DNA from: Beijerinckiaceae bacterium
Lineage (GTDB): Bacteria; Pseudomonadota; Alphaproteobacteria; Rhizobiales; Beijerinckiaceae
Length of the DNA stretch: 33,588 nucleotides
Direction: 5' to 3'
NCBI GenBank assembly: GCA_947453155.1
Contig: CANGFE010000024.1
Location: 1 to 33,588, forward strand
Shown: piece after piece, positions 73 through 22,719 of the stretch
Position numbering within the stretch: position 1 is the first letter of the stretch
How the letters are laid out: every line of letters starts with the position of its first letter
Notes under the pieces: model-generated
What the model saw: the letters and a program-made list of their open reading frames with translations, nothing else
What the model was told of the DNA's origin: nothing
The model's database searches: none
Position numbers and translations under genes: made by a program

Positions 73-3039
73 TCACGCTGCCTGAATTTGGCAGAGAGTC
101 ACCTTGCCTTCGTGCATGCCCGTGACCGGGTCATAACCGTAGGTGGTAACCGTGTTGACGCTTTCACCGAGCACGATCGGGTCCGTGCCCTTCGGATAAT
201 TGCCGCGCTGATCGACGCCCTGGAACCAGCCGCCGAAGTGGAAGGGCATAAACGCCACGCCACGACCCACGCGATCTGTGACGAGCGCTTTGACCTTCGC
301 CTTCGACTTGTTTTCCGGACCAGTGACCCAGACCCAGCCGCCATCAGCAATGCCGCGCTGTGCAGCATCGGCCGTGTTGATTTCGACGAACATGTCCTGC
401 TGCAATTCAGCCAGCCACTTGTTCGAGCGGGTTTCTTCACCACCGCCTTCATACTCAACGAGTCGGCCCGAGGTGAGGATGATCGGGAAGTCTTTCGCGA
501 TCCCCTTCTCAATGGCTGCCTTCTGCACCGAGAAGCCCGCATTCATCATGCGGAACTGACGGCCATCGGGACGCGTCGGATATTTGGCGACGAGATCGGT
601 GCGCGGCGTATAGATCGGCTCGCGATGGACCGGCACCGGATCGGGCAGGTTCCAAGCCGCTGCACGCGCCTTGGCATTGCCATAAGGCAACACGCCATGG
701 TCGAGACAGACGCGGATAATGCCGCCCGACAGATCAATGGCCCAACCAACAGCATCGGGGGCAGCGCCGCCGATCTTTTCGATCGTTGCACGCTCCTCAT
801 CGGTGAGATCCTTATCCCAACCGAGCTTCTTCAGAATGCCGTAAGTGAACTCCGGATAACCGTCGGTCAGCTCGGAGCCCTTCGAGTAAGAGCCTTCTGC
901 CAGCAAATTATACGTCGTCGATGTGCCATCGGCCTTCTTGTCTTCATAGACAGTGCCGAAGCGCGCGCGGAACGTACCGCCACCATCCTTCACATGAAGA
1001 TTGGTGTTGTAGAGCGTGTGCGTGCCGGGGTGACGAATTTCCGGCTTGCCCCAGCATGGCCACGGCAGACCGTAATAATCACCGCCCACTTCCGGCACAT
1101 CAGCCGGTGCGCGCAAGGTGACGAGATCGAACTTCTCGCGATGACGCAGATGCGCCTTCAGGCGCTCTGGCGACTGACCGGAATAACCCGTCGACCAACC
1201 ACCGCGATTGATTTCGCGCAAGATGTCTTCCGGCACCGGGCGATTGTTCTCGACCTTAATGTTCTTGAACATCTTATCGGCGAAGCCGAGCTTGGTGGCG
1301 AAGCGATAGATGACTTCATAATCATCCTTCGATTCAAAGATCGGATTGACAACCTTTTCGCCCCATTGGATCGAACGGTTCGAGGCCGAGCGCGAACCTT
1401 CCGTCTCGAACTGCGTGCAGATCGGCAGAAGATATGTGCCGTTCTTGCGGCCCGAGATCGCGGCAAAGGTTGTCGGATGCGGATCAGCCACAACAAGCAA
1501 TTCAAGCTGCTCGAGCGCCTTCACCATGTCGGGCATGCGCGGCACAGTATTGCCGCCGTGACCGAAGATCATCATGGCCTTCAGGCTGTCGCGCTGATCA
1601 ACATCGTCTGACTTGAAGCTCGTGGCATCGAACCAACGGGTCGAAGGAATGCCCGGCAGTTCCATGTTTGCCTTGCGATTGCGCGCAGGACGGCCAGCCT
1701 TTTCCGGAACTTCGTCGAAGCGGGCCTGCAGCCAGTCATATTCGACTTCCCACACACGTGCCCAATGCTTCCAAGCCCCTTCAACAAGGCCGTAGTAGAG
1801 CGGCAAAGAGGTGATATCGAGGCCCATATCCGTCGCGCCCTGCACGTTGCAGTGGCCGCGGAAGATGTTGGCGCCGCCGCCGAACACACCGACATTGCCG
1901 GTGGCGAGCAGCAGGTTGCAATATGCACGCACGTTGGCGGTACCCACCGTGTGCTGCGTGCCGCCCATGCACCAGATGAAGGTCGAAGGACGCTGCTTGG
2001 CGAAAGTTTCCGCCACGCGCTTCAGCTGTTCACCCGGAATACCGGTGACGCGTTCGGTCTCTTCCGGAGTCCACTTTTCAACTTCGGCGCGGACCAGATC
2101 CATGCCAGCGACGCGCTGTGCGATGAATTCCTTGTCTTCCCAGCCATTCTTGAAAATGTGCCACATCATGCCCCAGATCACCGCAATATCGGTGCCCGGA
2201 CGAATACGCACATATTCCGTCGCATGCGCGGCCGTGCGCGTGAAGCGCGGGTCGAGCACGATCATATTCGCGCGGTTCATTTCCTTGCCGGAAAGAACAT
2301 GTTGCAGCGAGACAGGATGCGCTTCCGCCGCATTCGACCCCATGAAGATGATGGTCTTGGCGTTGCGAATATCATTGTAGCTGTTGGTCTGCGCACCATA
2401 GCCCCAGGTGTTCGCGACACCGGCCACTGTCGTCGAGTGGCAAATACGGGCCTGATGGTCGACCGAATTCGTGCCCCAGAAAGCGCCGAGCTTACGGAAG
2501 AGATAAGCGCCTTCATTGGAGAATTTCGCCGAACCCAGCCAATAGACGGAATCTGCACCGCTCTTGGCGCGGATTTCGTTCATCTTGTCGCCGATTTCGT
2601 TGATGGCTTGATCCCAACCAACGCGGGTCCATTCGCCATTCACGAGCTTCATCGGATATTTCAGACGGCGATCACCATGCACGAGTTCGCGCACCGAGGC
2701 GCCCTTGGCGCAATGCGAACCGCGATTGATCGGGCTGTCATAAGCCGGCTCTTGGCCGACCCACACGCCATTCTGGACTTCAGCCACAATGCCGCAGCCG
2801 ACTGAGCAATGGGTGCAGACGTTCTTTTTGATTTCGCTCTTCACGCCCGCCGCAACGGGGCCAGCTTCCGCCTTGCGGACGGAGCCGAGTGTCAGCGAAC
2901 CAATGGCCGCAACGCCACCAGCAGCCAGACCCGAACGACGCAGGAATGAACGGCGATCTAGCACGCCCGAGGCAAGGCCTGCGGCCAAACCGGAAAGTCG
3001 CGCGCGTGAAGCAGTTGCTTCTTTACGTTTCGTCAGCAT
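73..3039 (-). CDS. fdhA: Formate dehydrogenase catalytic (alpha) subunit, Tat-exported, Mo/W-bis-MGD
   Basis: Oxidises formate to CO2 at a molybdenum or tungsten bis-MGD centre. The 988-residue protein opens with a twin-arginine signal (RRSFLRR from Arg29), a hydrophobic stretch and an Ala-rich cleavage region near residue 59, so the mature enzyme is probably periplasmic. One [4Fe-4S] cluster is supported by Cys75, Cys78, Cys82 and Cys110. The motif around Cys200-His201 gives the metal ligand as cysteine, so this is not a selenocysteine enzyme. The size and single N-terminal cluster fit the FDH-N/FDH-O-like class rather than the large cytoplasmic NAD-linked enzymes. GGGAG lies 7 bases before the ATG. 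It sits 11 bases after the small Tat protein and 12 bases before the beta subunit. The neighbouring tungstate transporter makes tungsten plausible, but the metal cannot be read from sequence. Confidence 0.95.
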   Translation of the reverse strand: MLTKRKEATASRARLSGLAAGLASGVLDRRSFLRRSGLAAGGVAAIGSLTLGSVRKAEAGPVAAGVKSEIKKNVCTHCSVGCGIVAEVQNGVWVGQEPAYDSPINRGSHCAKGASVRELVHGDRRLKYPMKLVNGEWTRVGWDQAINEIGDKMNEIRAKSGADSVYWLGSAKFSNEGAYLFRKLGAFWGTNSVDHQARICHSTTVAGVANTWGYGAQTNSYNDIRNAKTIIFMGSNAAEAHPVSLQHVLSGKEMNRANMIVLDPRFTRTAAHATEYVRIRPGTDIAVIWGMMWHIFKNGWEDKEFIAQRVAGMDLVRAEVEKWTPEETERVTGIPGEQLKRVAETFAKQRPSTFIWCMGGTQHTVGTANVRAYCNLLLATGNVGVFGGGANIFRGHCNVQGATDMGLDITSLPLYYGLVEGAWKHWARVWEVEYDWLQARFDEVPEKAGRPARNRKANMELPGIPSTRWFDATSFKSDDVDQRDSLKAMMIFGHGGNTVPRMPDMVKALEQLELLVVADPHPTTFAAISGRKNGTYLLPICTQFETEGSRSASNRSIQWGEKVVNPIFESKDDYEVIYRFATKLGFADKMFKNIKVENNRPVPEDILREINRGGWSTGYSGQSPERLKAHLRHREKFDLVTLRAPADVPEVGGDYYGLPWPCWGKPEIRHPGTHTLYNTNLHVKDGGGTFRARFGTVYEDKKADGTSTTYNLLAEGSYSKGSELTDGYPEFTYGILKKLGWDKDLTDEERATIEKIGGAAPDAVGWAIDLSGGIIRVCLDHGVLPYGNAKARAAAWNLPDPVPVHREPIYTPRTDLVAKYPTRPDGRQFRMMNAGFSVQKAAIEKGIAKDFPIILTSGRLVEYEGGGEETRSNKWLAELQQDMFVEINTADAAQRGIADGGWVWVTGPENKSKAKVKALVTDRVGRGVAFMPFHFGGWFQGVDQRGNYPKGTDPIVLGESVNTVTTYGYDPVTGMHEGKVTLCQIQAA

Positions 3040-4634: not shown

Positions 4635-5140
4635 GGGCGCCGATCTCCAGGCTTGCCACCAAAGCCGCGCTCTTTGCGCTCACTGCGATCACGCTGGCGC
4701 TTCAAAAACTCACGCTCGACATGAAACGCATCAGTGAAAGCAGCGATCCATGACGCGATATCGGCAGGCATCGGAATCGCGCCAACAATTTCAAAGCCCG
4801 CCGCAAACCAAGCTTCACCCTCAGTCGGATCAGCCGTCACGCGCACGAAAGATGGCACATCATTTTCAAGCCGTGCAGCGACCCAAAGGCGCGCCGAGCC
4901 CTCCAGCATATTGTCGCGGTAATTGGTCGTATCTGAGGCAAACAGTTCAATCGTTGTCGTGCCTGCATAAATGAGCGCACGCTCGCCATCATCCGAAATC
5001 TTGGTGCCTGCCGGCGTGTCGGGAGCCGGAAACAGCACATTGTCAGGAGACCAAACCACATCAGCCCAAGCATGCTGGATCACACGTCGTGACAGCACAA
5101 CACCAACCGTGCGGGTGATCTCCTGATCGAATGTGCTCAT
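4631..5140 (-). CDS. DUF3305 family protein
   Basis: A 169-residue soluble protein matching DUF3305. The N-terminal half begins with a strand-rich segment containing VVLSRRVIQHAWADVVW. The C-terminal half has a VTADPTEGEAW segment, IPMPADIASWIAAF and a basic end (FLKRQRDRSERKER). The function of the family is unknown; it is a regular partner of DUF3306 in formate dehydrogenase operons. Its ATG overlaps the DUF6352 stop by 4 bases and its own stop overlaps the DUF3306 start by 4 bases, so it is locked into the middle of a translationally coupled series. The basic tail could bind an acidic partner such as the DUF3306 protein; this is inference. Confidence 0.85.
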   Translation of the reverse strand: MSTFDQEITRTVGVVLSRRVIQHAWADVVWSPDNVLFPAPDTPAGTKISDDGERALIYAGTTTIELFASDTTNYRDNMLEGSARLWVAARLENDVPSFVRVTADPTEGEAWFAAGFEIVGAIPMPADIASWIAAFTDAFHVEREFLKRQRDRSERKERGFGGKPGDRRP

Positions 5141-6156
5141 GACACTTTGCTTTCGAGCAGCGGCAGACCGGCGACCAGATTCTGCGGCTTCAAACGCCAG
5201 ATTTTATCAGCATCCATCGCGCCGATCAGATAGATCGGCGCACCCCGCAGATCAGCGCGCACACGCGCTTCATCCTTGATGACCATGCGCATCAGCGTCA
5301 CAACGCGCTCGGAAAAACCAGCGCCCAAAGTCGCGCCCTTCCAGAGCATATTGCCAATCTTGGTGCCCTCGGAATCAAGCCCCACAAACCAGCGCCAATC
5401 CTTGTCTTCGATTGCAGCCAGTGGTTCGACACTCACCTCAAGATTGAGCAAATGTTTCACCCAAAGCTCAATCACACGAGCAAAAGATTCACGCGCCTTT
5501 TTATTCGCGCCAATATTCATGATCATCGTATGCGCGTCAGAACGCGACCAATAGGTCCAGGCATTCTCGTCATCCATAATGTCGAGATTGCCGAACTCCG
5601 GCACCGGATCTAGCAAAGCTGTCAGCGGCGTCAGATGCGCGCTGTCTTTCAACTGTTGCTGCGCTTCAACCACTTCGGCATCAGCGAGCAAAAGCGCCCC
5701 CTCATGGACGGTGGCTTTTTGCGCACGGAAGAAAAGCTCGGCAGCGCGCAGGACAAAAGGATCATCACATTCATCCAGCGCATTGCGCAAAACCAGATGC
5801 ACAAGTTGCGACAGAAATATCGGCGGCACGCCATCGGCACCATGTCTGGCGAAATCGAGATAAGCGGCTTCCAGAGACGGTGCTTTCAAAATGCGATCCC
5901 GAAAGCCCAACATGAATTGCCAATTCTCACGCCCATCCGGATCAGCAATGGCTGCAACCTCAGCCGCCGTCACCGTGCGAAATGGATCGGCCATGAGATG
6001 TCCATGCAAAGCGCGCTCGGCCGCACAAGCCTCATCAGGCGGCAGCAATTCAGGACGCGCCAGATAGGCCATCATCCATTCGGGCGTGGCAACCAGCCCG
6101 CCATGATCGGCACGGCGCACAAGATGATGACCGGAAGAAACCCAAAATTCTCTCAT
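5137..6156 (-). CDS. DUF6352 family protein
   Basis: A 339-residue soluble protein that I place in DUF6352 from its N-terminus (REFWVSSGHHLV, then an YLARPELLPPDEACAAERALH segment) and its place in the operon. It appears mixed alpha/beta without a signal peptide, membrane segment or cysteine cluster. No enzyme motif is visible, and the family has no assigned function that I know of. The ATG overlaps the DUF6505 stop by 4 bases. Being fixed between DUF6505 and DUF3305 in a formate dehydrogenase operon argues for a maturation or assembly role rather than an unrelated enzyme. The call rests on recollection of the family and context. Confidence 0.75.
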   Translation of the reverse strand: MREFWVSSGHHLVRRADHGGLVATPEWMMAYLARPELLPPDEACAAERALHGHLMADPFRTVTAAEVAAIADPDGRENWQFMLGFRDRILKAPSLEAAYLDFARHGADGVPPIFLSQLVHLVLRNALDECDDPFVLRAAELFFRAQKATVHEGALLLADAEVVEAQQQLKDSAHLTPLTALLDPVPEFGNLDIMDDENAWTYWSRSDAHTMIMNIGANKKARESFARVIELWVKHLLNLEVSVEPLAAIEDKDWRWFVGLDSEGTKIGNMLWKGATLGAGFSERVVTLMRMVIKDEARVRADLRGAPIYLIGAMDADKIWRLKPQNLVAGLPLLESKVS

Positions 6157-6713
6157 GGCTCTTTGTCTTTCATCAGGCCGATCAAATCGACATGTTCTTC
6201 CACACCGCTCTCCTCACCCTCGCTCTCGACAAAGGTGAAGGCGCGCGCCTGCGCATGCAAGGAATCGCCCCCTTTTTCGCGCGCACGCTGATGTAGCGTC
6301 CGAAAACGCTCGCGGATTTCGCCATCCTCGATCCCGCGCTGCACAGCCAGCACCGTGCCTTCCGCATGATCGCAGATCGACGCGGCAAAAGCGATTTCAT
6401 CTTCCGCTGCCGCACGCGCAGCCTCGCGCGAGGGCGCGCCCATCTGCTCATGAATGAAACGCGCCAGACTTTCGACAGCCTCCGCACGCTCAGCTTCTGT
6501 GACCAACGTCACCACACAGAGCGTCGACCAGCCGAAAGACGAAAGCCCCAAAAAGCCAGCCCGCAAAGCCGCGCGCTCTTTGGGCGCAAGCGCATCGAGA
6601 TCGGCATCGAAAAACAGAAACGAGCCCGACACCGCCCATTCGCCGGGCTCGGCAGCTTTGGCAAAGACAAATGTGTCGGAGGGATCAAGCCGCAAAGTGC
6701 GAGGCAGTTTCAT
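6153..6713 (-). CDS. DUF6505 family protein
   Basis: A soluble protein of about 186 residues. The N-terminal pattern (LPRTLRLDPSDTFVFAKAAEPGEWAV) followed by a helical middle rich in Ala and Glu fits DUF6505, a small family found with DUF6352 and ligase-like genes. The start is ambiguous: a GTG at 6716 gives a 4-base overlap with the upstream stop, and the ATG at 6713 gives a 1-base overlap; I list the ATG. There are no metal-binding or membrane motifs. It has only three cysteines and they are scattered, so a Fe-S role is unlikely. Function is unknown; co-translation with neighbours suggests a shared maturation task. Confidence 0.75.
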   Translation of the reverse strand: MKLPRTLRLDPSDTFVFAKAAEPGEWAVSGSFLFFDADLDALAPKERAALRAGFLGLSSFGWSTLCVVTLVTEAERAEAVESLARFIHEQMGAPSREAARAAAEDEIAFAASICDHAEGTVLAVQRGIEDGEIRERFRTLHQRAREKGGDSLHAQARAFTFVESEGEESGVEEHVDLIGLMKDKEP

Positions 6714-7465
6714 CACACGCCCGCCTGAAACTTCGGCGCACCATTTTCAGAATCATACCAGCTCTCGAGTTGCAACGCGGGCAGAAACAGCGTGCGTTCC
6801 GGCTCGCCTCGATCCAGCGGTGCGTGCACCAAGAGATCTCCATTGCCATCAATGGCGCGGCGCTCTCCGGCTTTCTTGGCGGGCATGCGCGCAAAAAAGT
6901 CCTGTGCCACGGCCTTAAACCCGCGTTCCTTCCAGCGGTCAAAATGCACCATGAGATGGCGCGCATAAGAGCCGATCAGCATTTCCGTATCGATTAGCTC
7001 AAACCCTTCCGAGAGAAGCGACACAGCGCCGGGCACAAGACCTGTCTCGACATGGGAGAGATCAGCCGAGCGCAAAATGATCCCTGTCACGAGCCAATCA
7101 GGAACGGCCTCTTCCGCACAATTTTGGGGCCAGGCAAGACGCGCCCCACCAATCAAGCCACCATCAAAGAGGATCGTATCCGGCCATTTGAATTCAACCG
7201 TCCGCTCGGGCGGGCAATGGGCGGCAATGGCATCGGCCATCGCCACCATCGAGGCATAATGCGCGCGCCGCGCCGTGGCGAGCGGCTCTTCGGGCTCCAG
7301 CACGACGGCAAATTCAATGAGATCATAACGGCGCACATGCACCAGCGTGCCAGCCCCCGCCTCAGCGGCAATAGACTGCGCATGGGCAAAAGCATCGCCA
7401 TGCTCACGCAGAGCAACGGCACTGAAGCCGGGTGGCAGATCAAGGGCGGGCGTCTCTATGGTCAT
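6713..7465 (-). CDS. Biotin/lipoate--protein ligase family protein (divergent)
   Basis: A 250-residue protein with the biotin/lipoate ligase fold followed by a small C-terminal domain (about residues 190-245) of the type annotated DUF4444. The lysine motif KWPD is present at 93-96 and a GGLIGGAR segment follows at 102-109, as in biotin ligases (KWPND...GGKxxG). The usual GRGRxGRxW substrate loop is not recognisable; the corresponding stretch (about 36-46) reads GAGTLVHVRRY. It may therefore bind a ligand or protein without normal ligase chemistry. It is the first gene of the formate dehydrogenase operon. No strong ribosome site precedes the ATG, and a 9-bp perfect hairpin lies 16 bases upstream, which may matter for its control. 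No biotinyl or lipoyl acceptor domain is visible nearby. Confidence 0.8.
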   Translation of the reverse strand: MTIETPALDLPPGFSAVALREHGDAFAHAQSIAAEAGAGTLVHVRRYDLIEFAVVLEPEEPLATARRAHYASMVAMADAIAAHCPPERTVEFKWPDTILFDGGLIGGARLAWPQNCAEEAVPDWLVTGIILRSADLSHVETGLVPGAVSLLSEGFELIDTEMLIGSYARHLMVHFDRWKERGFKAVAQDFFARMPAKKAGERRAIDGNGDLLVHAPLDRGEPERTLFLPALQLESWYDSENGAPKFQAGV

Positions 7466-10856: not shown

Positions 10857-11726
10857 ATGAAAAAAGCGCTGCTGCTCCCCAATCCCGAAAATCCGCGCCT
10901 TACAGAAGCGGTGACGGGCATTGACCAGACAGGTGCCAGCGTAGACATCCGAGTGCCGGTGGAACGCGCACTGACGCTATATCTCAATGCGCAAGAAATC
11001 GTCACCATGATGACGATCAATGATTATCCGGAATATCTGGCGCTCGGCTATTTGCTCAACCAGAATATGCTGAAAGCCGATGATATCGTCACCGAAGTCG
11101 AATATGACGACGATCTCGAAGTTGTGGTCGTGCGCACCGAGCGCGGCACCAATTACGAGCAGAAGCTCAAAAAGAAAACGCTCACCTCCGGCTGCGCACA
11201 AGGCACCGCCTTTGGCGATCTGATGGAAGCCGTAGAAGGCGCCGAACTGCCCAAAGCAGAATTGCGCACCAGCTGGCTCTATGAGCTCACCCATAAAATC
11301 AACACGACAGATTCGCTTTATCTGACAGCGGGCGCCATTCATGGCTGTGTGCTCTGCGAAAAGGGCGAGCCCATTTGCTATATGGAAGATGTCGGCCGCC
11401 ACAATGCCGTCGATAAAATCGCGGGCTGGATGTTTCGCGAAAAGATCGATCCCGCGAACAAGATTTTTTACACGACCGGTCGCCTAACATCCGAAATGGT
11501 CATCAAGACTGTGCGCATGGGAATTCCGATTCTTGTGTCACGCTCCGGCTTCACCGCTTGGGGGGTGGAACTGGCACGCCAAGTTGGTCTCACGCTGATT
11601 GGTCGCGCGAAGGGCAAGCGTTTCATTGCGCTTGCCGGACAAGAGCGCCTCATCTTCGATCAGGATCTCAATTTCGTTGAAGACGAAAGCATGCGTGCGC
11701 GCCGCAAGGGAGCCGATGATGAGTGA
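10857..11726 (+). CDS. fdhD: Formate dehydrogenase accessory sulfurtransferase FdhD
   Basis: Transfers sulfur from a cysteine desulfurase to the bis-MGD cofactor, which formate dehydrogenase needs for activity. The 289-residue protein carries the conserved Cys113 in the motif TSGCAQGT and the family block [12 protein letters not shown]...[11 protein letters not shown] (GRHNAVDK at 180-187). The second cysteine of the CxxC loop seen in the E. coli protein is absent; many family members have only one, so this is not evidence of inactivity. The ATG at 10857 lies 5 bases after the mrp stop and its 3' end overlaps the start of mobA, so the genes are co-transcribed. Confidence 0.95.
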
Positions 11727-12333
11727 CACAATCGGCGTCATTCTCGCAGGCGGGCTGGCGCGGCGCATGGGCGGTGGCGACAAAGCCATGCGCGAAATAG
11801 CCGGCCGCACCATTTTGCAGCGCGTGATTGATCGTGTGGGGCCGCAATGCTCCGGCCTCATTCTCAACGCCAATGGCGATCCGGCACGTTTCGACTCTTT
11901 CGGCCTGCCGGTTGTGCCCGATGATGTGCCCGATTTTGCGGGTCCGCTCGCAGGGATTCTTGCAGCACTTGATTGGACCGCGCAGCACCGGCCGGAAACG
12001 CCATGGGTGGTGAGTGCGGCGGCGGATTGCCCCTTCCTGCCGCGCGATTTGGTGGCGCGTTTTCAGGCTGTTCGCCGCGAAGAAGAGTCGCAACTCTGTG
12101 TCGCGCGCTCAGACGGACAGACGCATCCGGTCATCGGTTTGTGGAGTGTGAATCTGCGTCACGATTTGCGCAAATCTTTGGTCGAAGAAGATTGCCGCAA
12201 AATCGACCGCTGGACCGCGCGCCACGCGCTCGCCACGGTTGATTGGCCAACCCTGCCGGTTGATCCCTTCTTCAACGCCAACACACCGCATGATCTGGCA
12301 GAAGCCGAACGCCTCGCAATTTTGGACGATTAA
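11719..12333 (+). CDS. mobA: Molybdenum cofactor guanylyltransferase MobA
   Basis: Adds GMP to molybdopterin to form the guanine dinucleotide cofactor used by formate dehydrogenase. The 204-residue protein starts with the nucleotide-binding motif [14 protein letters not shown] (residues 9-22) and has the later [10 protein letters not shown] segment typical of the family. Of the two adjacent ATG codons (11716 and 11719), the second has AAGGGAG 6 bases upstream. It overlaps the fdhD stop by 8 bases. It is the last gene of the plus-strand maturation operon, with a REP-like palindrome starting 2 bases after its stop. Confidence 0.92.
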
Positions 12334-12334
12334 G

Positions 12335-12440
12335 CTCGTCATTGCGAGGAGGCCGCAGGCCGACGCGGCAATCCATAGCACAAACCTCGTCAAATGAGCG
12401 CTATGGATTGCCGCGTCGCTACGCTCCTCGCAATGACGAG
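12335..12440. repeat. REP-like long inverted repeat
   Basis: The arms at 12335-12379 and 12400-12440 form a large hairpin with a 20-base loop. Each begins with CTCGTCATTGCGAGGAG and ends with CGACGCGGCAATCCATAGC when read from outside. They differ only in a short central block (GCCGCAGGC against CGTAG). This is the style of repetitive extragenic palindromes common in Rhizobiales genomes. It lies between convergent mobA and the MoeA fusion gene, so transcripts from both sides would form the hairpin and could stop or be stabilised there. The right arm supplies the last codons and stop of the minus-strand gene. No transposase gene or target duplication was seen. Confidence 0.85.
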
Positions 12441-14365
12441 GCGGGAGTGAATCCTGCTGCAATAAGTACGTTTTTTGTTTCTTCCGAGTTCAAAGACGCC
12501 AAAAGTGCCTGCACCGCAGGCCTATTTTTGCGCGCACTCACCAGCGCCAGATCATAATGCTCTTGCGCAAAAGGCAAGAAAGCCAGACCGTAAGCCTCCG
12601 CCACAGGTGCAATCGTCATGCCCCAATCAGCACGGCCCTGCGCGACAGCAGCTGCCACCGCATTGTGTGACTTCGGCTGGTTCCAATAGCCCTCGGGCTT
12701 GGCACCATTCAGCAACCGATCGAGCAAAATGCGCGTGCCCGCACCCTGATTGCGATTGACCATCAGACAGGATGGATCAGCCAGCGCCTTGGCAACAGCA
12801 GCGCGCGCATCAAGCCCCGCAAAACGCGCATCGTCTTTGCGATAGACAATGCCCTGCATACGCCGCCAACCTTCGACAAGCTCCAGCCCCTCGCTCAGGA
12901 AAGGCTTGTTATAGGTCTCGGTCTTGTCATCAAACAGATGGATCGGCGCCACATCACATTCGCCACGCTTGGCAGCCGCCAAACCACCGAGTGAGCCGAC
13001 TGCAATGATGCGTGTGGCAAATCCTGCTTGCGCCACAGGCGCAATAGCGACATCAAGCCCCGTGCAATGCGAGCCAATGATGGTGAGATCAGGCACCCGC
13101 AGATGCGGCGTGAACAAAGTCACGTCTGTCGATGTCCCCGCCGCCATATGATCGGCCAAAGCATCAATGCGCAAGAAACCATCGGCCTGCGCAAAACTCG
13201 TGATCGCACCAGAGCCTTTGCCAGTGGGGTAAGCGAGCAGACCGTCCGCACCTTCGACCAGCGCGACCATAACAAATTCGGCACGCCCCAATTCTGAAGC
13301 AATGCGCACCGGCACACGCGCCTCGACTTTCGCATCTTTGCGCGGCGGCAAACCCGCCATGCGGCGCAATGAGGGCACAATCATATCGTGGAAGGTGAAC
13401 ATGGCTGATGTCGGAAAGCCCGGCAAAATCACGACGGGCTTGCCATCACAAACCGCCAGACACAGAGGCTTTCCGGGCTTGAGCGCAACGCCATGAGCAA
13501 TCATCTGATCCAAGCGTGACAAGATGCGATGCGTATAATCGCCCGCACCTTTCGATGTCCCACCTGACAAGATCAGCATGTCATGATCGGCGAGCGCCTC
13601 GCGCATGGCTTTTTCGAGCGCTGCTTCATCATCGGCAACATGGCCTAAGAAAATCGGAGCACCGCCGTTTTCGCGCACCGCCGCCGCCACAATCGGGCCA
13701 TTCGTATCGAAAATTTGTGCAGGCTTCAGCACGCCACCCGGCTGCACCAATTCATCGCCCGTCGAGAGAATAGCCACACGCGGAACTCGCACGGCATCAA
13801 TCTCGCCAATGCCGCAGGCGGCCAACATGCCGATTTCGCGCGCGCCAATCACGACACCCGCGCGCAAGACAGTTTCCCCGCGCGCCATATCCGTGCCAGC
13901 AGACGAGATAAACTGCCCCGGCGAAACCGCACGGCGCACATCAATGGCGCCAGCCGCGGGTTGCGTCTGCTCGATCATGACAATCGCATCAGCCCCACGC
14001 GGCACCGGCCCGCCTGTGGCTATTGCGGTGGCCGTCATCGGTGCCACGACGAGTTTGGGGGCAATGCCGCAGGCAATCACTTCATCATTCAGCGCAAGCT
14101 GTACAGGCGCAGCTTCGGAGGCTTGCGCAAGATCAGCGGCGCGCACAGCAAAGCCATCAACATTCGAGCGATCAAACGGGGGTACATCAATGGGGGCTCG
14201 CACATCTTGCGCCAGCGCACGGCCCAATGCATCTGCCAAAGTCACGCGCTCTGTCGCGCTTGCACGCGGAAACAGCGCCGCCTCAAAACGCGCCAAAGCC
14301 TCTTCGCGGGAGAGGATGGACAGGAATTGATCCTGCGCCAGACTGGCATCTTGTTTCTGTGTCAT
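12419..14365 (-). CDS. moeA: MoeA-type molybdenum/tungsten insertase fused to a periplasmic-binding-like domain
   Basis: A 648-residue fusion. Residues 15-420 are a complete MoeA, which inserts metal into adenylated molybdopterin: NVDGF (68-72), TGGPVPRGAD (117-126), Asp159, STGDEL (201-206, Glu205), SGGTSKGAGD (267-276) and KPGKP (296-300) match the expected active-site blocks. Residues 428-640 form a type 2 periplasmic-binding-like domain without a signal peptide, with GSHCTGLD, a NRNQGAGTRILLDRLL segment (537-552) and a C-terminal HYDLALVSARK block. This domain may bind the metal oxyanion or a cofactor precursor. Its ATG overlaps the upstream MoeA-like stop by 4 bases. The last residues (about SSLRGA) and the stop lie inside the REP-like palindrome, so the natural C-terminus may have been replaced. 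Confidence 0.93.
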   Translation of the reverse strand: MTQKQDASLAQDQFLSILSREEALARFEAALFPRASATERVTLADALGRALAQDVRAPIDVPPFDRSNVDGFAVRAADLAQASEAAPVQLALNDEVIACGIAPKLVVAPMTATAIATGGPVPRGADAIVMIEQTQPAAGAIDVRRAVSPGQFISSAGTDMARGETVLRAGVVIGAREIGMLAACGIGEIDAVRVPRVAILSTGDELVQPGGVLKPAQIFDTNGPIVAAAVRENGGAPIFLGHVADDEAALEKAMREALADHDMLILSGGTSKGAGDYTHRILSRLDQMIAHGVALKPGKPLCLAVCDGKPVVILPGFPTSAMFTFHDMIVPSLRRMAGLPPRKDAKVEARVPVRIASELGRAEFVMVALVEGADGLLAYPTGKGSGAITSFAQADGFLRIDALADHMAAGTSTDVTLFTPHLRVPDLTIIGSHCTGLDVAIAPVAQAGFATRIIAVGSLGGLAAAKRGECDVAPIHLFDDKTETYNKPFLSEGLELVEGWRRMQGIVYRKDDARFAGLDARAAVAKALADPSCLMVNRNQGAGTRILLDRLLNGAKPEGYWNQPKSHNAVAAAVAQGRADWGMTIAPVAEAYGLAFLPFAQEHYDLALVSARKNRPAVQALLASLNSEETKNVLIAAGFTPASSLRGA

Positions 14366-15342
14366 GCGCGGACCGGAATTGCTGACATCACATCGCCCGC
14401 AGCATGGCCCTCGCTCAAAGCCGCGATCAGGCTGACATGTGTGGCGCTCGCCAGCGATTGCAAGGGCAGATCACCCAAAGCGCGCAGATGAAACTTTCCG
14501 TCGTGTGCTTCCAGCAAAGCAAATTCGGCAACACCAACACGGCTCGCAATTTTCTGCGCGAGCGGCAGGCGCATTTCAGCAGCCTTCGCTCCCGACAAGC
14601 GCACAAGCGCCGGACGCAAAAACCCATGCAAAGCTGCGAAGACCTGATCGAGACGCGCGGGCACATAGATTGCCGGCACGCCCTTCTCTTCCCCAAAGGA
14701 AAGATCAGCACCCGGCTCCAAGGCGAGACGCTGCGCGTTTGGCTTGGTACCCAGAACAATCACCAAATCAGGCGCGCCATCCAAACGCGCACCAGCCTGT
14801 GTCAGTTGATCGCGCAAGTAAGCGGCGAGTAGTGAGTCATCTCCGCGCAAATTGACAACGGGCGCACGCACAGGGACCTGCTGCACACCCGCCTGCGAAA
14901 GAAGCAGCGCATGCTGCGAGGAAATCCTCTCACCTACGCGCAGGATAAGGGCGCCTTGCGCAAAATCTTCGCCCGCACGGCGGATGTTTTCACCCGGAAA
15001 ACTTTCCACCAAGGCCTGCGGCAGAGGCCCATCAAGATCAAGCCCGCTGGCTTCCACCACGCAATCACAATCGGACGATAAAGCCTGACCCGCGGCGACA
15101 AAACGCGGCGGACGTGCCAGCACAACGGGCGCGTAAGAGGAGGCACCCGCAATTGCCTGCGCGGACAATTCATAACCATCACGCAAGGCAAGCGCGCGCG
15201 CCGGAACAGGCTGCGGGGCGCGCACATCTTCAGCCGCGACATGACCAACAGCCTGCGTGAGCGTGCAGATTTGCCCGCGCACAGGCACAAGCCGCGTCAG
15301 CAGGCTCTCAAGAGCATCGGCATAGGAACGAAGGGCACTCAT
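14362..15342 (-). CDS. Degenerate MoeA-like molybdopterin-binding protein
   Basis: A 326-residue protein alignable to MoeA over most of its length but shorter and with altered catalytic blocks. The DGY of MoeA domain 3 is kept (LRDGYEL). The TGxPxPxGAD segment is replaced by AAGQALSSDCD, the SGGxSxGxxD loop is missing around LVIVLGTKPN, and KPGKP is only LEPGAD. It is read immediately after tupA (15 bases) and overlaps the intact MoeA fusion by 4 bases. Insertase activity on its own seems unlikely; it may form a hetero-oligomer with the fusion protein, as MoeA works as a dimer, or act as a cofactor-binding or metal-discriminating subunit. No signal or membrane segment is visible. Confidence 0.8.
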   Translation of the reverse strand: MSALRSYADALESLLTRLVPVRGQICTLTQAVGHVAAEDVRAPQPVPARALALRDGYELSAQAIAGASSYAPVVLARPPRFVAAGQALSSDCDCVVEASGLDLDGPLPQALVESFPGENIRRAGEDFAQGALILRVGERISSQHALLLSQAGVQQVPVRAPVVNLRGDDSLLAAYLRDQLTQAGARLDGAPDLVIVLGTKPNAQRLALEPGADLSFGEEKGVPAIYVPARLDQVFAALHGFLRPALVRLSGAKAAEMRLPLAQKIASRVGVAEFALLEAHDGKFHLRALGDLPLQSLASATHVSLIAALSEGHAAGDVMSAIPVRA

Positions 15343-15357
15343 GCCCTTCGGTTTAGC

Positions 15358-16167
15358 TCACTTGCCGGCGTTGGGAAAGAAGAGCTGCTGGCCTTCAATC
15401 TTGTAATCAGCAATCACCTTCTGGCCCTCGGCCGAGAGGACATAATCAACAAAGGCCTGACCGAGATCAGCCTTCACATGCGGATGTTTGGCGGGGTTCA
15501 CCAGCATCACGCCATATTGATTGAAAAGCTTGGTGTCGCCTTCCACCGCAATGATGAGGCCGTCCTTGCCCTTGAAGGAAATCCACGTGCCACGATCCGA
15601 CAAAACATAGGCGCCCATGGCCTTGGATGTGTTGAGCGCGGCCCCCATGCCTTGGCCGATTTCCTTGTACCAATCAGCCTTGGCCGCGGCGGGGTCGAGG
15701 CCCGCGTCTTTCCACAAAGCCAGCTCTGCGGCATGGGTGCCCGACTTGTCGCCGCGCGAGACAAAGGGGGCAGCTTTTGCCTGAATGGTTTTCAATGAGG
15801 CGACAATATCTTTCGAGCCTTTCAGGCCCGCGGGATCAGCGGCCGCGCCAATCAGCACAAAGTCATTATACATCACGTCAAAACGCTTCACGCCAAATCC
15901 TTCGGCGAGAAACTTTTCTTCTGCTGATTTGGCGTGAACGAAAACAACATCCGCATCACCGCGCCGCGCTGTGTCGAGCGCTTGGCCTGTGCCTTGTGCA
16001 ATGACCTTCACATCAATGCCGGTCTTGGCTTTGAAGGCTGGGAGCAGATGATTGAAAAGCCCAGAATCCTGCGTCGATGTGGTCGAGGCAATGGTGATGA
16101 TTTTGTCTTGCGCCTGCGCGCCAAATGTCAGGCAAGCGATGGTCAAGGCAGAAAAGAGAAGTCGCAT
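15358..16167 (-). CDS. tupA: Tungstate (molybdate) ABC transporter substrate-binding protein TupA
   Basis: A periplasmic receptor of 269 residues with a Sec signal peptide (about residues 1-19, AQA before the mature start). The mature N-terminus carries IASTTSTQDSGL, the TTTS-like oxyanion motif characteristic of TupA/WtpA-type receptors and distinct from ModA. Further blocks are QGTGQALDTARRGDADVV and SRGDKSGTH, which in family members contribute ligands around the anion. High selectivity for tungstate is typical of TupA, but molybdate cannot be excluded. It lies 3 bases after tupC and 15 before the MoeA-like gene, giving the unusual order B-C-A. Confidence 0.93.
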   Translation of the reverse strand: MRLLFSALTIACLTFGAQAQDKIITIASTTSTQDSGLFNHLLPAFKAKTGIDVKVIAQGTGQALDTARRGDADVVFVHAKSAEEKFLAEGFGVKRFDVMYNDFVLIGAAADPAGLKGSKDIVASLKTIQAKAAPFVSRGDKSGTHAAELALWKDAGLDPAAAKADWYKEIGQGMGAALNTSKAMGAYVLSDRGTWISFKGKDGLIIAVEGDTKLFNQYGVMLVNPAKHPHVKADLGQAFVDYVLSAEGQKVIADYKIEGQQLFFPNAGK

Positions 16168-16170
16168 CGT

Positions 16171-16887
16171 TCAGTCCTCCAAAATAAGGTCACCGCGTAA
16201 AAAGGCAGATGCCTGCGCGCTGACAGGTTGCTCAAAGAAATCTTTCGCAGACGCTGATTCCAGAATTCGCCCACGATGCAGAAACACGACGTCACCCGCC
16301 AAGCGACGCATTTGGCCAAGATCATGCGAGGCCATAAGAATTTTAATGCCGTCTGAGACTGCTTGCGCGATGAGACGCTCCAGCGCCAATGTTGCTGAAG
16401 GGTCAAGACTCGCCGTTGGTTCATCAAGAATGAGCAAGTCAGGTGAGCGCGCCAGTGCGCGGGCAAAAGCAAGTTTTTGGCGCTCGCCGCCAGACAGACG
16501 TCGCGCTGGGCGATCCGCCAGATCCGCGAGCCCAACTTTTTGCAAGAGTTCACCGCAACGCCTGTCGCGCAGGCTTTTCTCGACGCCCGCCTGCTCCAAA
16601 GCATAAAGCAGATTGCCCGCCACAGAACGGCGCAACATGACTGGATGCTGAAACACCATGGCACGTCGGCGCGGTGCGGGATCACACGCCCCCGCCCATT
16701 CAATCGTGCCCGCTGTTGGCGTCATCAATCCCATGATGAGGCGCAAGAGCGTCGATTTTCCAGAGCCATTCGGCCCAACGACAAAGGTCGGTGCGCCTGC
16801 GCGCACGACAAGATCAACGTCACGCAAGATCGACGTCTCGCCGATCGCATAAGTGACTTTGGTAAGTGTGACGGGCAGATCGCTCAT
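16171..16887 (-). CDS. tupC: Tungstate ABC transporter ATP-binding protein TupC
   Basis: The cytoplasmic ATPase of the tungstate importer, 238 residues. Walker A is GPNGSGKST, the Q-loop is MVFQHPVMLRRSV, the ABC signature is LSGGERQKLA, Walker B with its catalytic Glu is LLILDEPTASLD, and the switch His is in MASHDLGQ. The start is the ATG at 16887, which overlaps the tupB stop by 4 bases; longer in-frame versions would run deep into tupB. There is no C-terminal regulatory TOBE domain like that of ModC, in line with Tup-type systems. Confidence 0.93.
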   Translation of the reverse strand: MSDLPVTLTKVTYAIGETSILRDVDLVVRAGAPTFVVGPNGSGKSTLLRLIMGLMTPTAGTIEWAGACDPAPRRRAMVFQHPVMLRRSVAGNLLYALEQAGVEKSLRDRRCGELLQKVGLADLADRPARRLSGGERQKLAFARALARSPDLLILDEPTASLDPSATLALERLIAQAVSDGIKILMASHDLGQMRRLAGDVVFLHRGRILESASAKDFFEQPVSAQASAFLRGDLILED

Positions 16888-17576
16888 CCGATCCGCCTTT
16901 CTGCATAAAGCCGCAAGGCCCAAGCGCTCGCATTGATCGCAAAGACGATGATCATAAGAATGAGGCCAAGCCCCATCGCGAGCGGCAAATCGCCTTTGGA
17001 GGTTTCCAGCGCAATGGCCGTGGTCATGACGCGCGTAAAGCCGTTGATATTGCCACCCACAATCATCACTGCGCCAACTTCTGCGGCCGCACGGCCAAAG
17101 CCCGCGAGCAAAACAGTGACCAGCGCAATGCGCGCGTCATAAAGCAATGTCATCAGGCGGTGCAGCGGCCCCACACCCATGGCATTGAGCTCATCGCGCA
17201 CTTCGCTCCAATAATCTTCCACGGTCTGGCGTGTCAGCGCCGCAATGATCGGCATAATCAGCACGGCTTGCGCGATCACCATGGCGGTGGGCGTGAACAG
17301 CAAGCCCCATGAGCCCAGCGGCCCCGAGCGTGAGAGCAGGAGAAACACCGCCAGCCCCACCACCACAGGCGGCAGGCCCATAAAGGCATTGAGCAGGACA
17401 ATCACACCCGCCCGGCCCGGAAAACGCGTGAGCGCGATCAACCCGCCCAGCGGCAGGCCGACGAGTGCCGCCAGGCCGACAGCGCTCAGGCTGACAACCA
17501 GTGACAAGCGGACAATGGCATAAAGCGCCGGATCGCCCGATAAAACGAGCGCAAGGGCGCTAGACCCTTCATTCAT
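16884..17576 (-). CDS. tupB: Tungstate ABC transporter permease TupB
   Basis: The membrane subunit of the importer, 230 residues, with about five to six hydrophobic segments. The coupling-helix region around EVRDELNAMGVGPLHRLMTL is typical of binding-protein-dependent permeases and contacts the ATPase. The start is placed at the ATG at 17576, because AGGAG lies 7 bases upstream; the ATG at 17582 would leave only one base of spacing. It is the first gene of the minus-strand uptake/insertion operon, with an 87-base divergent region separating it from the regulator gene. Confidence 0.93.
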   Translation of the reverse strand: MNEGSSALALVLSGDPALYAIVRLSLVVSLSAVGLAALVGLPLGGLIALTRFPGRAGVIVLLNAFMGLPPVVVGLAVFLLLSRSGPLGSWGLLFTPTAMVIAQAVLIMPIIAALTRQTVEDYWSEVRDELNAMGVGPLHRLMTLLYDARIALVTVLLAGFGRAAAEVGAVMIVGGNINGFTRVMTTAIALETSKGDLPLAMGLGLILMIIVFAINASAWALRLYAERRIG

Positions 17577-17633
17577 CAGCATCTCCTGATGCCAGATAGG
17601 GTTTTTATTCCGCAAAAAGTCAAACGCTTGAAT

Positions 17634-17653
17634 TTATGCACATCAGCGCATAA
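17634..17653. promoter_or_regulatory. Putative operator: TTATGC-N8-GCATAA
   Basis: A perfect 6-bp inverted repeat with an 8-base spacer sits between divergent tupB and the HTH regulator, 10 bases before the regulator ATG. The region is markedly AT-richer than the genes on either side. Position and symmetry suit a site bound by the adjacent regulator to control both directions. No biochemical consensus is known to me for this regulator type. Confidence 0.5.
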
Positions 17654-17663
17654 AAATGCAGGC

Positions 17664-18542
17664 ATGGATTTACTGACCACTGCCGAAGCCGCCGATTATC
17701 TGCGCCTCAAAGAGCGCAAGCTCTATGAGCTTGTGGCCGAGGGCGCGATCCCCTGCTCCAAAGTCACGGGCAAATGGCTCTTTCCCCGCCATGAGCTCGA
17801 CCGCTGGGTCCTGTCGGGCCTTGCCACGCCGGTCGGCATGCAGGCGCGCCCGGCCCCGCCCATTGTCGGTGGCAGCCAAGACAATCTGCTCGAATGGGCT
17901 TTGCGCGAATCAAACTCAGGCCTTGCCAGCCTGCCCGAAGGATCAGAGGCCGGTGTCGCCCGCCTGTTGCGCGGCGAAGTGCTGGCCGCCGCGATTCATT
18001 ATCACGCCGCAGACGTGGATGACGCCAATCCGCGCGCAGTGGCTCGGCTCGCAGGCCTGCATGATGGTGTGCTGGTGTCTTTTGCCAAGCGCGAGCAAGG
18101 CCTGCTCGTGGCACCGGGCAATCCGAAAAACATTTCATCGCTTGAGGATGTGCTGGCCAAAAAAGCCAGCATGGCCGTGCGCCAGAAGGGTGCTGGCGCA
18201 CAAATGCTGCTCGATGTGATGCTGCAACGGATTGGCCCGACAGCGGCGCAGCTCAATCGTCTTTTGCCACCCTGCTTAACGGGGCCCGATCTCGCCAATG
18301 CTGTGGCAAGCGGCAAAGCCGATTGCGGCATTGCCACACGTTCAGCCGCAAAAGCGGCGCGGCTCGATTTTGTGCCGCTGCAATTTGAGCATTTTGATCT
18401 GGCTCTGCGCCAAGCAGATTTCTTCCGCCCGCCGATTCAAAATCTGCTCGCGCTGCTGCGCCAAGATCGCTTCGTGAAACGCGCCAGCGAACTCACCGGC
18501 TATGATGTCGCAGAAGCTGGCATCATCCGCTACGCGCCTTAA
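17664..18542 (+). CDS. HTH regulator with periplasmic-binding-like sensor domain, probably for tungstate/molybdate
   Basis: A 292-residue cytoplasmic protein. Residues 1-50 are an excisionase/MerR-type helix-turn-helix (LLTTAEAADYLRLKERKLYE, then a KWLFPRHELDRW wing). Residues 66-285 are a binding-protein-like domain related to the one at the C-terminus of the MoeA fusion: both have a GAG...LLD block (here 176-183) and an FDLALRQADFF/HYDLALVSARK block before the end. This is not a ModE architecture. The start is the ATG at 17664, so that the HTH begins at residue 4. It is divergent to tupB, and the stop overlaps the convergent pirin stop by 4 bases. A metal-oxyanion or cofactor-responsive repressor/activator of the tup operon is the simplest reading; the ligand is not known. 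Confidence 0.85.
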   Translation: MDLLTTAEAADYLRLKERKLYELVAEGAIPCSKVTGKWLFPRHELDRWVLSGLATPVGMQARPAPPIVGGSQDNLLEWALRESNSGLASLPEGSEAGVARLLRGEVLAAAIHYHAADVDDANPRAVARLAGLHDGVLVSFAKREQGLLVAPGNPKNISSLEDVLAKKASMAVRQKGAGAQMLLDVMLQRIGPTAAQLNRLLPPCLTGPDLANAVASGKADCGIATRSAAKAARLDFVPLQFEHFDLALRQADFFRPPIQNLLALLRQDRFVKRASELTGYDVAEAGIIRYAP

Positions 18543-21393: not shown

Positions 21394-22719
21394 ATGCAGA
21401 CTCACGGCATTTCATTCAACGAGGCTTTGCGCGTCTGGTTGCGCATCGCGGCCCTGTCTTTCGGGGGACCCGCTGGCCAGATTGCGGTCATGCATCGCAT
21501 TATTGTCGATGAGAAACGCTGGCTCTCGGAAGCACGTTTTCTACATGCGCTGAATTATTGCATGTTGCTGCCCGGCCCCGAGGCGCAACAGCTCGCCACT
21601 TATATTGGCTGGTTGATGCATGGTGTGCGCGGCGGGCTGGTGGCGGGACTCTTGTTCATTCTGCCGGGCATTATTGCCATTATGGCGCTGAGCTATGTCT
21701 ATGCTCTGTTTGGCTCGGTCGGTTTTGTCGCCGCCTTTTTCTTCGGGCTGAAAGCTGCTGTTCTCGCAATTGTGGTTGAAGCGGTCGTGCGCGTGGGCAA
21801 ACGCGCATTGAAAAACCGCATCATGCAGGCGCTTGCTGCCTGCGCCTTTATCGCACTGTTCGTGTTCAATGCGCCCTTCCCGCTTGTCATTCTGGGAGCG
21901 GGCATCATCGGCTATATTGGCTCATCGCTTGGATCTGTGGCTTTTCTGGTGAGCAATGGTCACGGGCCATCCGAAGCCACAGCGTTAGAAGACAGCGCGA
22001 TCTCACCCGCCATGCGCCAAGGCGCACGTCGCGCAGCTTTTGTGGCAGCTTTGCTCTGGCTCATTCCTGTTGCTGCTCTTTTCCTCACGCTCGGTCCGCA
22101 AAATGTCTTCTCGCAAATCGCCGTTTTCTTTTCCAAAATGGCGGTGGTGACATTTGGTGGCGCTTATGCGGTGCTGGCCTATGTCGCGCAGCAAGCGGTT
22201 GAGAATTTCCATTGGCTCAAACCCGGCGAAATGCTCGACGGACTCGGCATGGCAGAAACAACGCCGGGCCCGCTGGTCATGGTGCTACAATTTGTCGGCT
22301 TCATGGGCGCATTGCGTGATGCTGGCACATTGCCGCCTTTGCTAGCCGCAACATTGGGCGGCCTGCTCGCGACATGGGTGACTTTCGCGCCGTGCTTTTT
22401 GTGGATCTTTTGGGGCGCGCCGCATATTGAGCGGCTGCGCGGCAACAAGGCGATTGCAGGCGCGCTCTCAGCCATTACGGCCGCTGTTGTGGGCGTGATC
22501 CTCAATCTCGCAATTTGGTTTGCGGTTCACACCATCTTTGCGCAGACGGTGACTTGGCACGGCGTTGATCTGCCTGTGCTGCTCTCGCTCAACCCTGCTG
22601 CACTCGCACTCAGTCTAGGTGCGGCTTACGCCATCTTCCGGATGAAAGCGGGCATGCTGCAAGTGCTGGCCGCCACATCAGCGGCAGGCGTGCTCGCCCA
22701 TTTAGCAGGCGTCATTTGA
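21394..22719 (+). CDS. chrA: Chromate transporter ChrA, two-domain form
   Basis: A 441-residue inner-membrane protein of the CHR family with two homologous halves, each opening with an FGG motif: LRIAALSFGGPAGQIAVMH near residue 20 and FFSKMAVVTFGGAYAVLAYV near residue 255. Each half is followed by a proline-rich loop (LLPGPEAQQL; MAETTPGPLVM). The long form exports chromate using the membrane potential in studied members; transport of other oxyanions such as sulfate is possible. It stands alone, without chrB, and ends at a strong terminator. The ATG at 21394 has only a weak GGGC-rich ribosome site. Confidence 0.93.
   Translation: MQTHGISFNEALRVWLRIAALSFGGPAGQIAVMHRIIVDEKRWLSEARFLHALNYCMLLPGPEAQQLATYIGWLMHGVRGGLVAGLLFILPGIIAIMALSYVYALFGSVGFVAAFFFGLKAAVLAIVVEAVVRVGKRALKNRIMQALAACAFIALFVFNAPFPLVILGAGIIGYIGSSLGSVAFLVSNGHGPSEATALEDSAISPAMRQGARRAAFVAALLWLIPVAALFLTLGPQNVFSQIAVFFSKMAVVTFGGAYAVLAYVAQQAVENFHWLKPGEMLDGLGMAETTPGPLVMVLQFVGFMGALRDAGTLPPLLAATLGGLLATWVTFAPCFLWIFWGAPHIERLRGNKAIAGALSAITAAVVGVILNLAIWFAVHTIFAQTVTWHGVDLPVLLSLNPAALALSLGAAYAIFRMKAGMLQVLAATSAAGVLAHLAGVI

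Follow-up and report, generated by a model that had tools for sequence, protein, structure and literature searches.

A PF12727 binding domain on both the MoeA insertase and the regulator of a candidate tungstate locus in a Beijerinckiaceae bacterium

How cells pick tungsten over molybdenum, two near-identical oxyanions, is a standing question. It is raised by a stretch of 33,588 nucleotides from a Beijerinckiaceae bacterium (GenBank assembly GCA_947453155.1, contig CANGFE010000024.1; the window below), which encodes a TupABC-type importer, a MoeA insertase fused to a C-terminal periplasmic-binding-protein (PBP) domain, and a divergently transcribed regulator. The original prediction was that the receptor, the fusion and the regulator all carry the same binding fold, and that regulator and insertase sense one ligand. 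Is this a circuit special to the locus, or one domain family placed on several partners? The reading that we hold to be fairly probable is that tupB-tupC-tupA-degenerate moeA-moeA-PBP is a tungstate-cofactor operon, divergent from a TaoR-type regulator and beside the formate dehydrogenase that it most likely serves, and that the regulator and the fusion both handle an oxyanion. The features that bear on it are listed here.

17664..18542, plus strand: TaoR-type regulator with HTH_17 (excisionase-like) and PBP_like PF12727 domains (domain search, alignment of relatives)
17633..17660: putative operator, a TTTATGC-N8-GCATAAA inverted repeat overlapping TGCA/CGCA/TGCA words at 17637, 17647 and 17657, in 10-bp steps
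16884..17576, minus strand: tupB-like tungstate ATP-binding cassette (ABC) permease (ABC_perm1, 246.5 bits, cut-off 100)
16171..16887, minus strand: tupC-like ABC ATPase (ABC_tran match)
15358..16167, minus strand: TupA-like tungstate receptor (PBP_like_2; site residues match D. alaskensis TupA)
14362..15342, minus strand: degenerate MoeA, 326 amino acids (MoeA_N only in Pfam)
12419..14365, minus strand: MoeA-PBP fusion of the PRK14498/archaeal MoeA1 type, 648 amino acids (domain and full-length model matches)
12488..13096, minus strand: PBP_like C-terminal domain of the fusion, about residues 424–626 (Pfam, structure model)

Binding domains of the receptor, the fusion and the regulator

The fusion contains, in order, MoeA_N, MoCF_biosynth, MoeA_C and PBP_like (PF12727, residues 447–625; Pfam, E 1.5e-47, above 160 bits). 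The regulator consists of HTH_17 (residues 28–74; 53.9 bits, cut-off 27) and PBP_like (residues 107–290; E 1e-47, 162.2 bits, cut-off 27). Window TupA matches PBP_like_2 (E 2.2e-47) and reaches 22.4 of the 27 bits required for PF12727. The fusion and regulator domains are homologous, with 32% identity over 182 amino acids by BLASTP (E 2e-12) and 212 aligned columns in an hhalign profile comparison (E 4.5e-28). The sequence blocks noticed originally do align, GAGTRILLD (fusion residues 541–549) with GAGAQMLLD (regulator residues 201–209) and YDLAL (604–608) with FDLAL (269–273). TupA shares a 50-residue BLASTP match with the fusion (E 1e-4), and BLASTP gave no match between TupA and the regulator.

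The structure model of the fusion C-domain (predicted local distance difference test, pLDDT, 90.9) finds a phosphate receptor (1twy, three chains) and TupA (5my5 and 3lr1) in its top five Foldseek rows, with E values of 1.8e-9 to 4.4e-9. The regulator model (pLDDT 85.8) is closest to LysR-type regulators and other type 2 binding proteins. BLASTP, hhalign and Foldseek together support a common fold of the three domains, so that the prediction of three type 2 periplasmic-binding domains stands: the fusion and regulator domains are homologous PF12727 members, and TupA has their fold and is a distant relative. A phmmer search of solved structures with the fusion returned only MoeA, gephyrin, Cnx1 and one MoaB-type chain, none covering the C-domain, and no solved PF12727 structure came under E 0.1 when the regulator or either domain profile served as query.

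To compare the pockets, we used the site of D. alaskensis TupA, which is formed by TTTS, H59, R118, T124 and D170 (PMC5517513). Window TupA, which scores 265 bits against 3lr1, has S28-T29-T30-S31, H78, R138, T144 and D191 at these positions, the first Thr being replaced by Ser. In the hhalign alignments, R118 corresponds to R538 in the fusion and R198 in the regulator, H59 to H476 and H137, and T124 to T544 and A204, respectively. TTTS and D170 appear to have no clear counterpart in either cytoplasmic domain. Across 52 fusions, 34 HTH_17 regulators and 22 regulators with a ModE-type helix-turn-helix (ModE-HTH), four residues never vary: the His (H476/H137), the Arg (R538/R198), another Arg (R502/R168) and a Glu (E602/E267). 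An Asp (D580/D245) is invariant too, save for one Glu in a Cetobacterium fusion; a Gln (Q504/Q170) is common in regulators without being invariant. These counts cover all 112 domains of the motif table, with four regulators without a DNA-binding-domain class left outside them. Since each cytoplasmic domain has invariant residues at the places of the key Arg and His of TupA, an oxyanion-type ligand is favoured, and the conserved residues would face the cleft.

The pockets nevertheless differ. Thr544, Arg545 and His567 of the fusion are each kept in 52/52 fusions and in 22/22, 21/22 and 22/22 ModE-HTH regulators, but the window regulator has Ala204, Gln205 and Gly232 there, and the full set occurs in none of the 34 HTH_17 regulators. 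As judged from the alignments, TupA, fusion and regulator have an oxyanion-type core in common and the regulator pocket is not that of the fusion. A check of the anion-binding residues thus matches Arg and His in all three proteins, and the equivalent of TupA Thr144 is Ala in the regulator. Thr-Arg-His was also considered as a code for tungsten versus molybdenum and was dropped, since ModE-HTH regulators beside tup genes (L043, L045) keep it and it is complete in no HTH_17 regulator of this set. Regulators with a ModE/LysR-type HTH and PBP_like flank the tup operon in two family genomes and in Microvirga terrae (L043:9666-10652, L045:6117-7226, L209:15582-16610). At another locus (L047:11900-12859) an HTH_17 and PBP_like regulator is divergent from modAB-type genes and its pocket reads Ser-Arg-His. 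Arsenic resistance genes adjoin a split pair of HTH and PBP_like genes on plasmid pRCB133 of R. capsulatus (L206:6034-6960), a hint that other oxyanions are read by related sensors.

The descent of the domain was followed in a tree of 79 non-redundant domains, reduced from the 112 and used also for the frequency table. The named loci are the best 80 of at least 421, and loci L066–L145 were thinned to every third (27/80) before use. With midpoint rooting, the fusions, including those of Cetobacterium and Nonomuraea, lie on one side of a 98/80 branch, the ModE-HTH regulators form another branch (99/99), and the HTH_17 regulators lie outside both. By this grouping, the PBP_like sensor has been joined to MoeA as well as to DNA-binding domains of two kinds. 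Recent duplication as the origin of the fusion and regulator domains was rejected, because the 98/80 branch sets the fusions apart from the HTH_17 regulators under this root.

The control region between the regulator and the operon

The minus-strand genes tupB, tupC, tupA, degenerate moeA and fusion overlap one another or are separated by at most 15 bp (open reading frame coordinates), which argues for one operon. The six genes, regulator included, are ordered identically on plasmid pB of S. meliloti LMB1, and the same order recurs in other Hyphomicrobiales. Although the regulator frame extends back to 17589, its aligned relatives start at, or close to, the residue of the ATG at 17664; this makes 17664 the most likely start and puts the inverted repeat outside the regulator gene, between the two genes. 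The repeat has two perfect 7-nt arms (17633–17639 and 17648–17654) and an 8-nt spacer. The divergent transcription units around an operator-like repeat are therefore real, with the regulator start corrected from 17589 to 17664.

As a description of the operator, the palindrome alone is weak: its exact form matches only in the window, and 6 of 52 other upstream regions reach two mismatches. TGCA-like words, repeated every 10 bp upstream of the regulator start, give a better description of the putative operator. When 53 upstream regions were thinned to 24 non-redundant ones and nine patterns were counted, TGCA-N6-[TC]GCA occurred in 12/24 (100 shuffles: mean 0.40, maximum 2), a count that is not blind, since the 10-bp pattern was picked after the palindrome survey had been inspected. 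Spacings of 4, 5, 7 and 8 between the words occurred in 0/24. The exact three-word pattern is present at two places in the entire source genome (2.79 Mb in 120 contigs, completeness 83.6%). Excisionase-type proteins often bind direct repeats, and a 10-bp word array thus fits the HTH_17 domain. The regulator would probably recognise a stack of TGCA-type half-sites, spaced 10 bp apart, that lies between the two start regions. Its PBP_like domain would probably bind an intracellular oxyanion (tungstate, perhaps molybdate), adjusting the expression of tup-moeA and of its own gene in one direction or the other.

TaoR of Desulfovibrio vulgaris, reportedly described by Rajeev et al. in 2019, is said to combine HTH_17 with a PBP-like domain. 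The window regulator has HTH_17 at its N-terminus and PBP_like at its C-terminus, and linkage of such regulators to molybdenum or tungsten transporters is found in the window, on the S. meliloti plasmid and in family genomes where HTH_17 regulators are divergent from tupB. The regulator architecture is established for TaoR (PMC11980592), as is this kind of fusion (PRK14498; PMC11733289). Like TaoR, the window regulator is encoded beside a tungstate importer; unlike TaoR, it belongs to the Hyphomicrobiales and is located next to a formate dehydrogenase locus. A regulator of tungstate uptake, tupR, is given as DVU3193 with reference to Rajeev et al. (PMC10102598). In the titles and abstracts of the open-access papers listed by our searches, with subscription papers outside this scope, we found no statement that regulator and insertase share a PF12727 domain. 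The occurrence of this family on an insertase and on regulators, with defined shared and differing pocket positions, provides testable residues for ligand binding and selectivity.

The MoeA fusion, its degenerate partner and the importer

The fusion matches the full-length PRK14498 model over residues 11–639 (778.4 bits, cut-off 534) and has the four-part architecture of the MoeA1-PBP fusions (archaeal MoeA1; PRK14498; DVU0951). Its MoeA motifs KPG[KR], GDE and PG[NFHY]P are intact, whereas the degenerate MoeA has lost all three of these loops, which mark an active MoeA, together with part of domain III. This pairing is constant. A degenerate MoeA homolog lies directly upstream of the fusion on the same strand in 92/94 loci, with gaps of 0 to 115 bp, and in the other two the contig begins inside the fusion region. 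The 94 loci comprise the 80 named loci and 14 family loci and were scored by position, with fusion starts taken from the alignment; an earlier count by label had given 77/80 of the named loci. When partners shorter than 250 amino acids (89/92 kept) and fusions shorter than 600 (93/94 kept) are set aside, all 93 fusions carry KPG[KR], [ST]G[DN]E and PG[NFHY]P, motifs that occur in 0, 1 and 1 of the 89 partners, respectively. A GGxSxGxxD-type motif is kept in 75/89 partners and is lost in the window copy. The KPG loop is among the residues docked against tungstate in MoeA1 (PMC13197769). Unlike the window partner, those of Cetobacterium and Diaphorobacter are full-length MoeA proteins. In Microvirga terrae the degenerate homolog upstream of the fusion is unannotated (L209:7705-8991), and in Methylobacterium radiotolerans a short winged-HTH gene directly follows the fusion (L176:11923-12411).

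Two contiguous MoeA genes have been described, and MoeA1-PBP co-occurs with TupA in 86% (PMC11733289); the words 'heterodimer' and 'degenerat' are absent from the main text of that paper. The pairing of the fusion with a loop-less MoeA hints that the two proteins share out the work of metal insertion, an idea not mentioned in the consulted portions of the cited literature. The degenerate MoeA would act together with the fusion, the two perhaps forming a heterodimer, and the PBP domain would probably capture cytoplasmic oxyanion near the MoeA active site, a form of channelling. In its strictest version, which we put forward tentatively and consider rather unlikely, fusion and partner form an obligate heteromeric tungsten insertase in which the PBP_like domain captures cytoplasmic tungstate and loads a single kind of active site, because the partner has lost its own oxyanion-coordinating loop; the regulator domain would then read the same pool with an altered pocket and a different affinity.

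For the importer, TupABC would bring in tungstate. Window TupA has the TTTS, His, Arg, Thr and Asp oxyanion site, apart from the first Thr, and resembles the D. alaskensis and G. sulfurreducens proteins in site residues and overall similarity. Unlike those systems, all three window subunits remain below the NCBIfam equivalog cut-offs (TupA 241.9 of 400, TupB 160.4 of 320 and TupC 114.6 of 400 bits), hence the wording TupA-like, and selective tungstate transport is a candidate function. Among 248 family genomes, its own included, MoeA-PBP is above cut-off in 63, a TupA-like protein is found in 84 (E 1e-50), DUF6505 in 81 and regulator matches in 75, a list in which a few entries cover just the PBP part; four weaker fusion candidates that score below the cut-off (G138, G148, G176, G202) are uncounted. 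With the own genome excluded, TupA is present in 52/62 genomes with MoeA-PBP and in 31/185 without it, in statistics that ignore relatedness.

Published genetics comes from Methylorubrum extorquens, whose moeA5, moeA3, mobB and moeA1 are META1p3047 to 3050 and belong to a cluster called moeA1-mobB-tupBCA; MoeA5, MoeA3 and MoeA1 share 26.7, 36.3 and 40.6% identity with E. coli MoeA (PMC13197769). The gene order in Microvirga terrae is degenerate moeA, fusion, mobB, glp. In Methylobacterium radiotolerans and locus L045, identities to E. coli MoeA are 27.8–28.5% for the degenerate proteins, 37.6–39.2% for the fusions and 39.8–41.2% for the unfused Glp-type proteins, the last two being close in M. 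radiotolerans (39.2 versus 39.8%). IKPGR, residues 287–291 of MoeA1 in PMC13197769, is confined to unfused Glp-type proteins among 17 compared. From gene order and E. coli MoeA identity, without use of the M. extorquens sequence itself, MoeA3 would correspond to the window fusion and MoeA5 to the degenerate protein. The tungsten-specific pair moeA1 and mobB is not beside the window operon. Unfused moeA1 is required for tungsten loading of MeFDH1 (PMC13197769). Work on Desulfovibrio concludes by inference that the tungsten cofactor of Aor depends on both of its moeA genes, one of which includes PF12727 (PMC10102598).

Competing readings and the neighbouring genes

The preferred reading of a tungstate-cofactor operon has to be set against several observations that weigh on the other side. 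In hhalign TupA aligns with the fusion at E 3.6e-4 and a probability of only 37%, and with two regulator alignments at E 0.002 and 0.075 (probability 14% and 0.7%). The placement of the conserved residues in the cleft rests on homology, not on a liganded structure. No family genome (0/248) reaches the NCBIfam cut-off for TupA; MoeA-PBP is absent in 31/83 family genomes with TupA, so tungstate import does not everywhere require it; and the source genome has two further MoeA genes of unfused length. No form of array among those counted occurs in 11/24 upstream regions, and a sigma-70 scan of 17400–17800 found no promoter-like site. After deletion of moeA3 or moeA5 in M. extorquens, MeFDH1 retains most of its activity (41 and 40 against 50 U/mg) and of its tungsten (0.33 and 0.37 against 0.48 W per enzyme), and both genes are listed as dispensable (PMC13197769). 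These deletions count against tungsten selection by the fusion, for MeFDH1 in tungsten-supplemented cultures; their scope does not extend to formate dehydrogenase of the TorD/DUF3305 type, which is found near the fusion in the window, Microvirga and Diaphorobacter.

The proposed circuit, in which regulator and insertase domains sense one ligand, uptake is adjusted to insertion and tungsten is selected over molybdenum by the fusion, draws on homologous domains with a common polar core and on genes under one divergent control region. The shared fold and polar pocket positions, including the TupA Arg and His, are borne out; the single ligand does not follow, because Thr-Arg-His of the fusion becomes Ala-Gln-Gly in the regulator, and the two domains are apart in the tree. 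Co-regulation of importer and fusion needs no shared ligand, since both are in one operon. Selection by the fusion is opposed by genetics, since moeA3, its probable ortholog, is dispensable for the tungsten enzyme MeFDH1 (PMC13197769) and both MoeAs would be needed for the Desulfovibrio tungsten cofactor (PMC10102598). We therefore regard the circuit as unlikely; insertase and regulator would use one domain family because it is a general oxyanion module, linked to molybdenum and tungsten, that has been placed on several partners.

We give as little credence to the view that the ligand of the PBP_like domains is a pterin or cofactor intermediate and not free oxyanion, with the regulator reporting cofactor status. 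Conserved polar residues beyond those matched in TupA (R502, Q504, D580, E602) would leave space for a larger ligand, and the best matches of the regulator model include LysR effector domains, many of which bind organic ligands. However, the R-x-x-G-[AS]-G motif aligns with the TupA oxyanion loop, the fusion domain has phosphate and tungstate receptors as its best solved matches, and related PBP_like genes adjoin modAB-type genes (L047, L207) and ars genes (L206), which indicates oxyanions. Loss of ligand binding in the fusion, leaving a docking or stabilising part, would accord with the dispensability of the probable M. extorquens ortholog (PMC13197769), but the pocket positions are invariant across Fusobacteriota, Actinomycetota and Pseudomonadota fusions, one Asp-to-Glu change aside, which makes it the most doubtful of these views and quite improbable.

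The tungstate-cofactor operon has the following neighbours in the window.

11719..12333, plus strand: mobA, guanylyltransferase, convergent with the tup-moeA operon (219 bits, cut-off 152)
10857..11726, plus strand: fdhD, cofactor sulfurtransferase for formate dehydrogenase (FdhD-NarQ, 250 bits, cut-off 27)
73..3039, minus strand: formate dehydrogenase alpha-like gene (Fdh-alpha 462 bits, under the cut-off of 666; three molybdopterin oxidoreductase domains above cut-off)

The alpha-like gene is the likely client enzyme of the operon. Other genes of the window encode TorD-like, DUF3306, DUF3305, DUF6352, DUF6505, biotin/lipoate-ligase-like, ferredoxin-like and ApbC-like proteins. DUF3305/DUF3306 accompany 60% of fdhGHI operons of one kind (PMC4464133). 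TupA and DUF6505 occur together in 73 family genomes, of 83 and 80, respectively (Fisher odds ratio 164, relatedness ignored). DUF6352 and DUF6505, encoded at 5137–6156 and 6153–6716 in the window, look as if they belong to a system for tungsten formate dehydrogenase. A chromate transporter gene lies at 21394–22719 of the same contig, and chrA is also within 9 kb of the S. meliloti locus. Between the convergent mobA and fusion genes, at 12339–12443, is a long imperfect inverted repeat of the CATTGCGAGG type, which looks like a dispersed repeat or a terminator.

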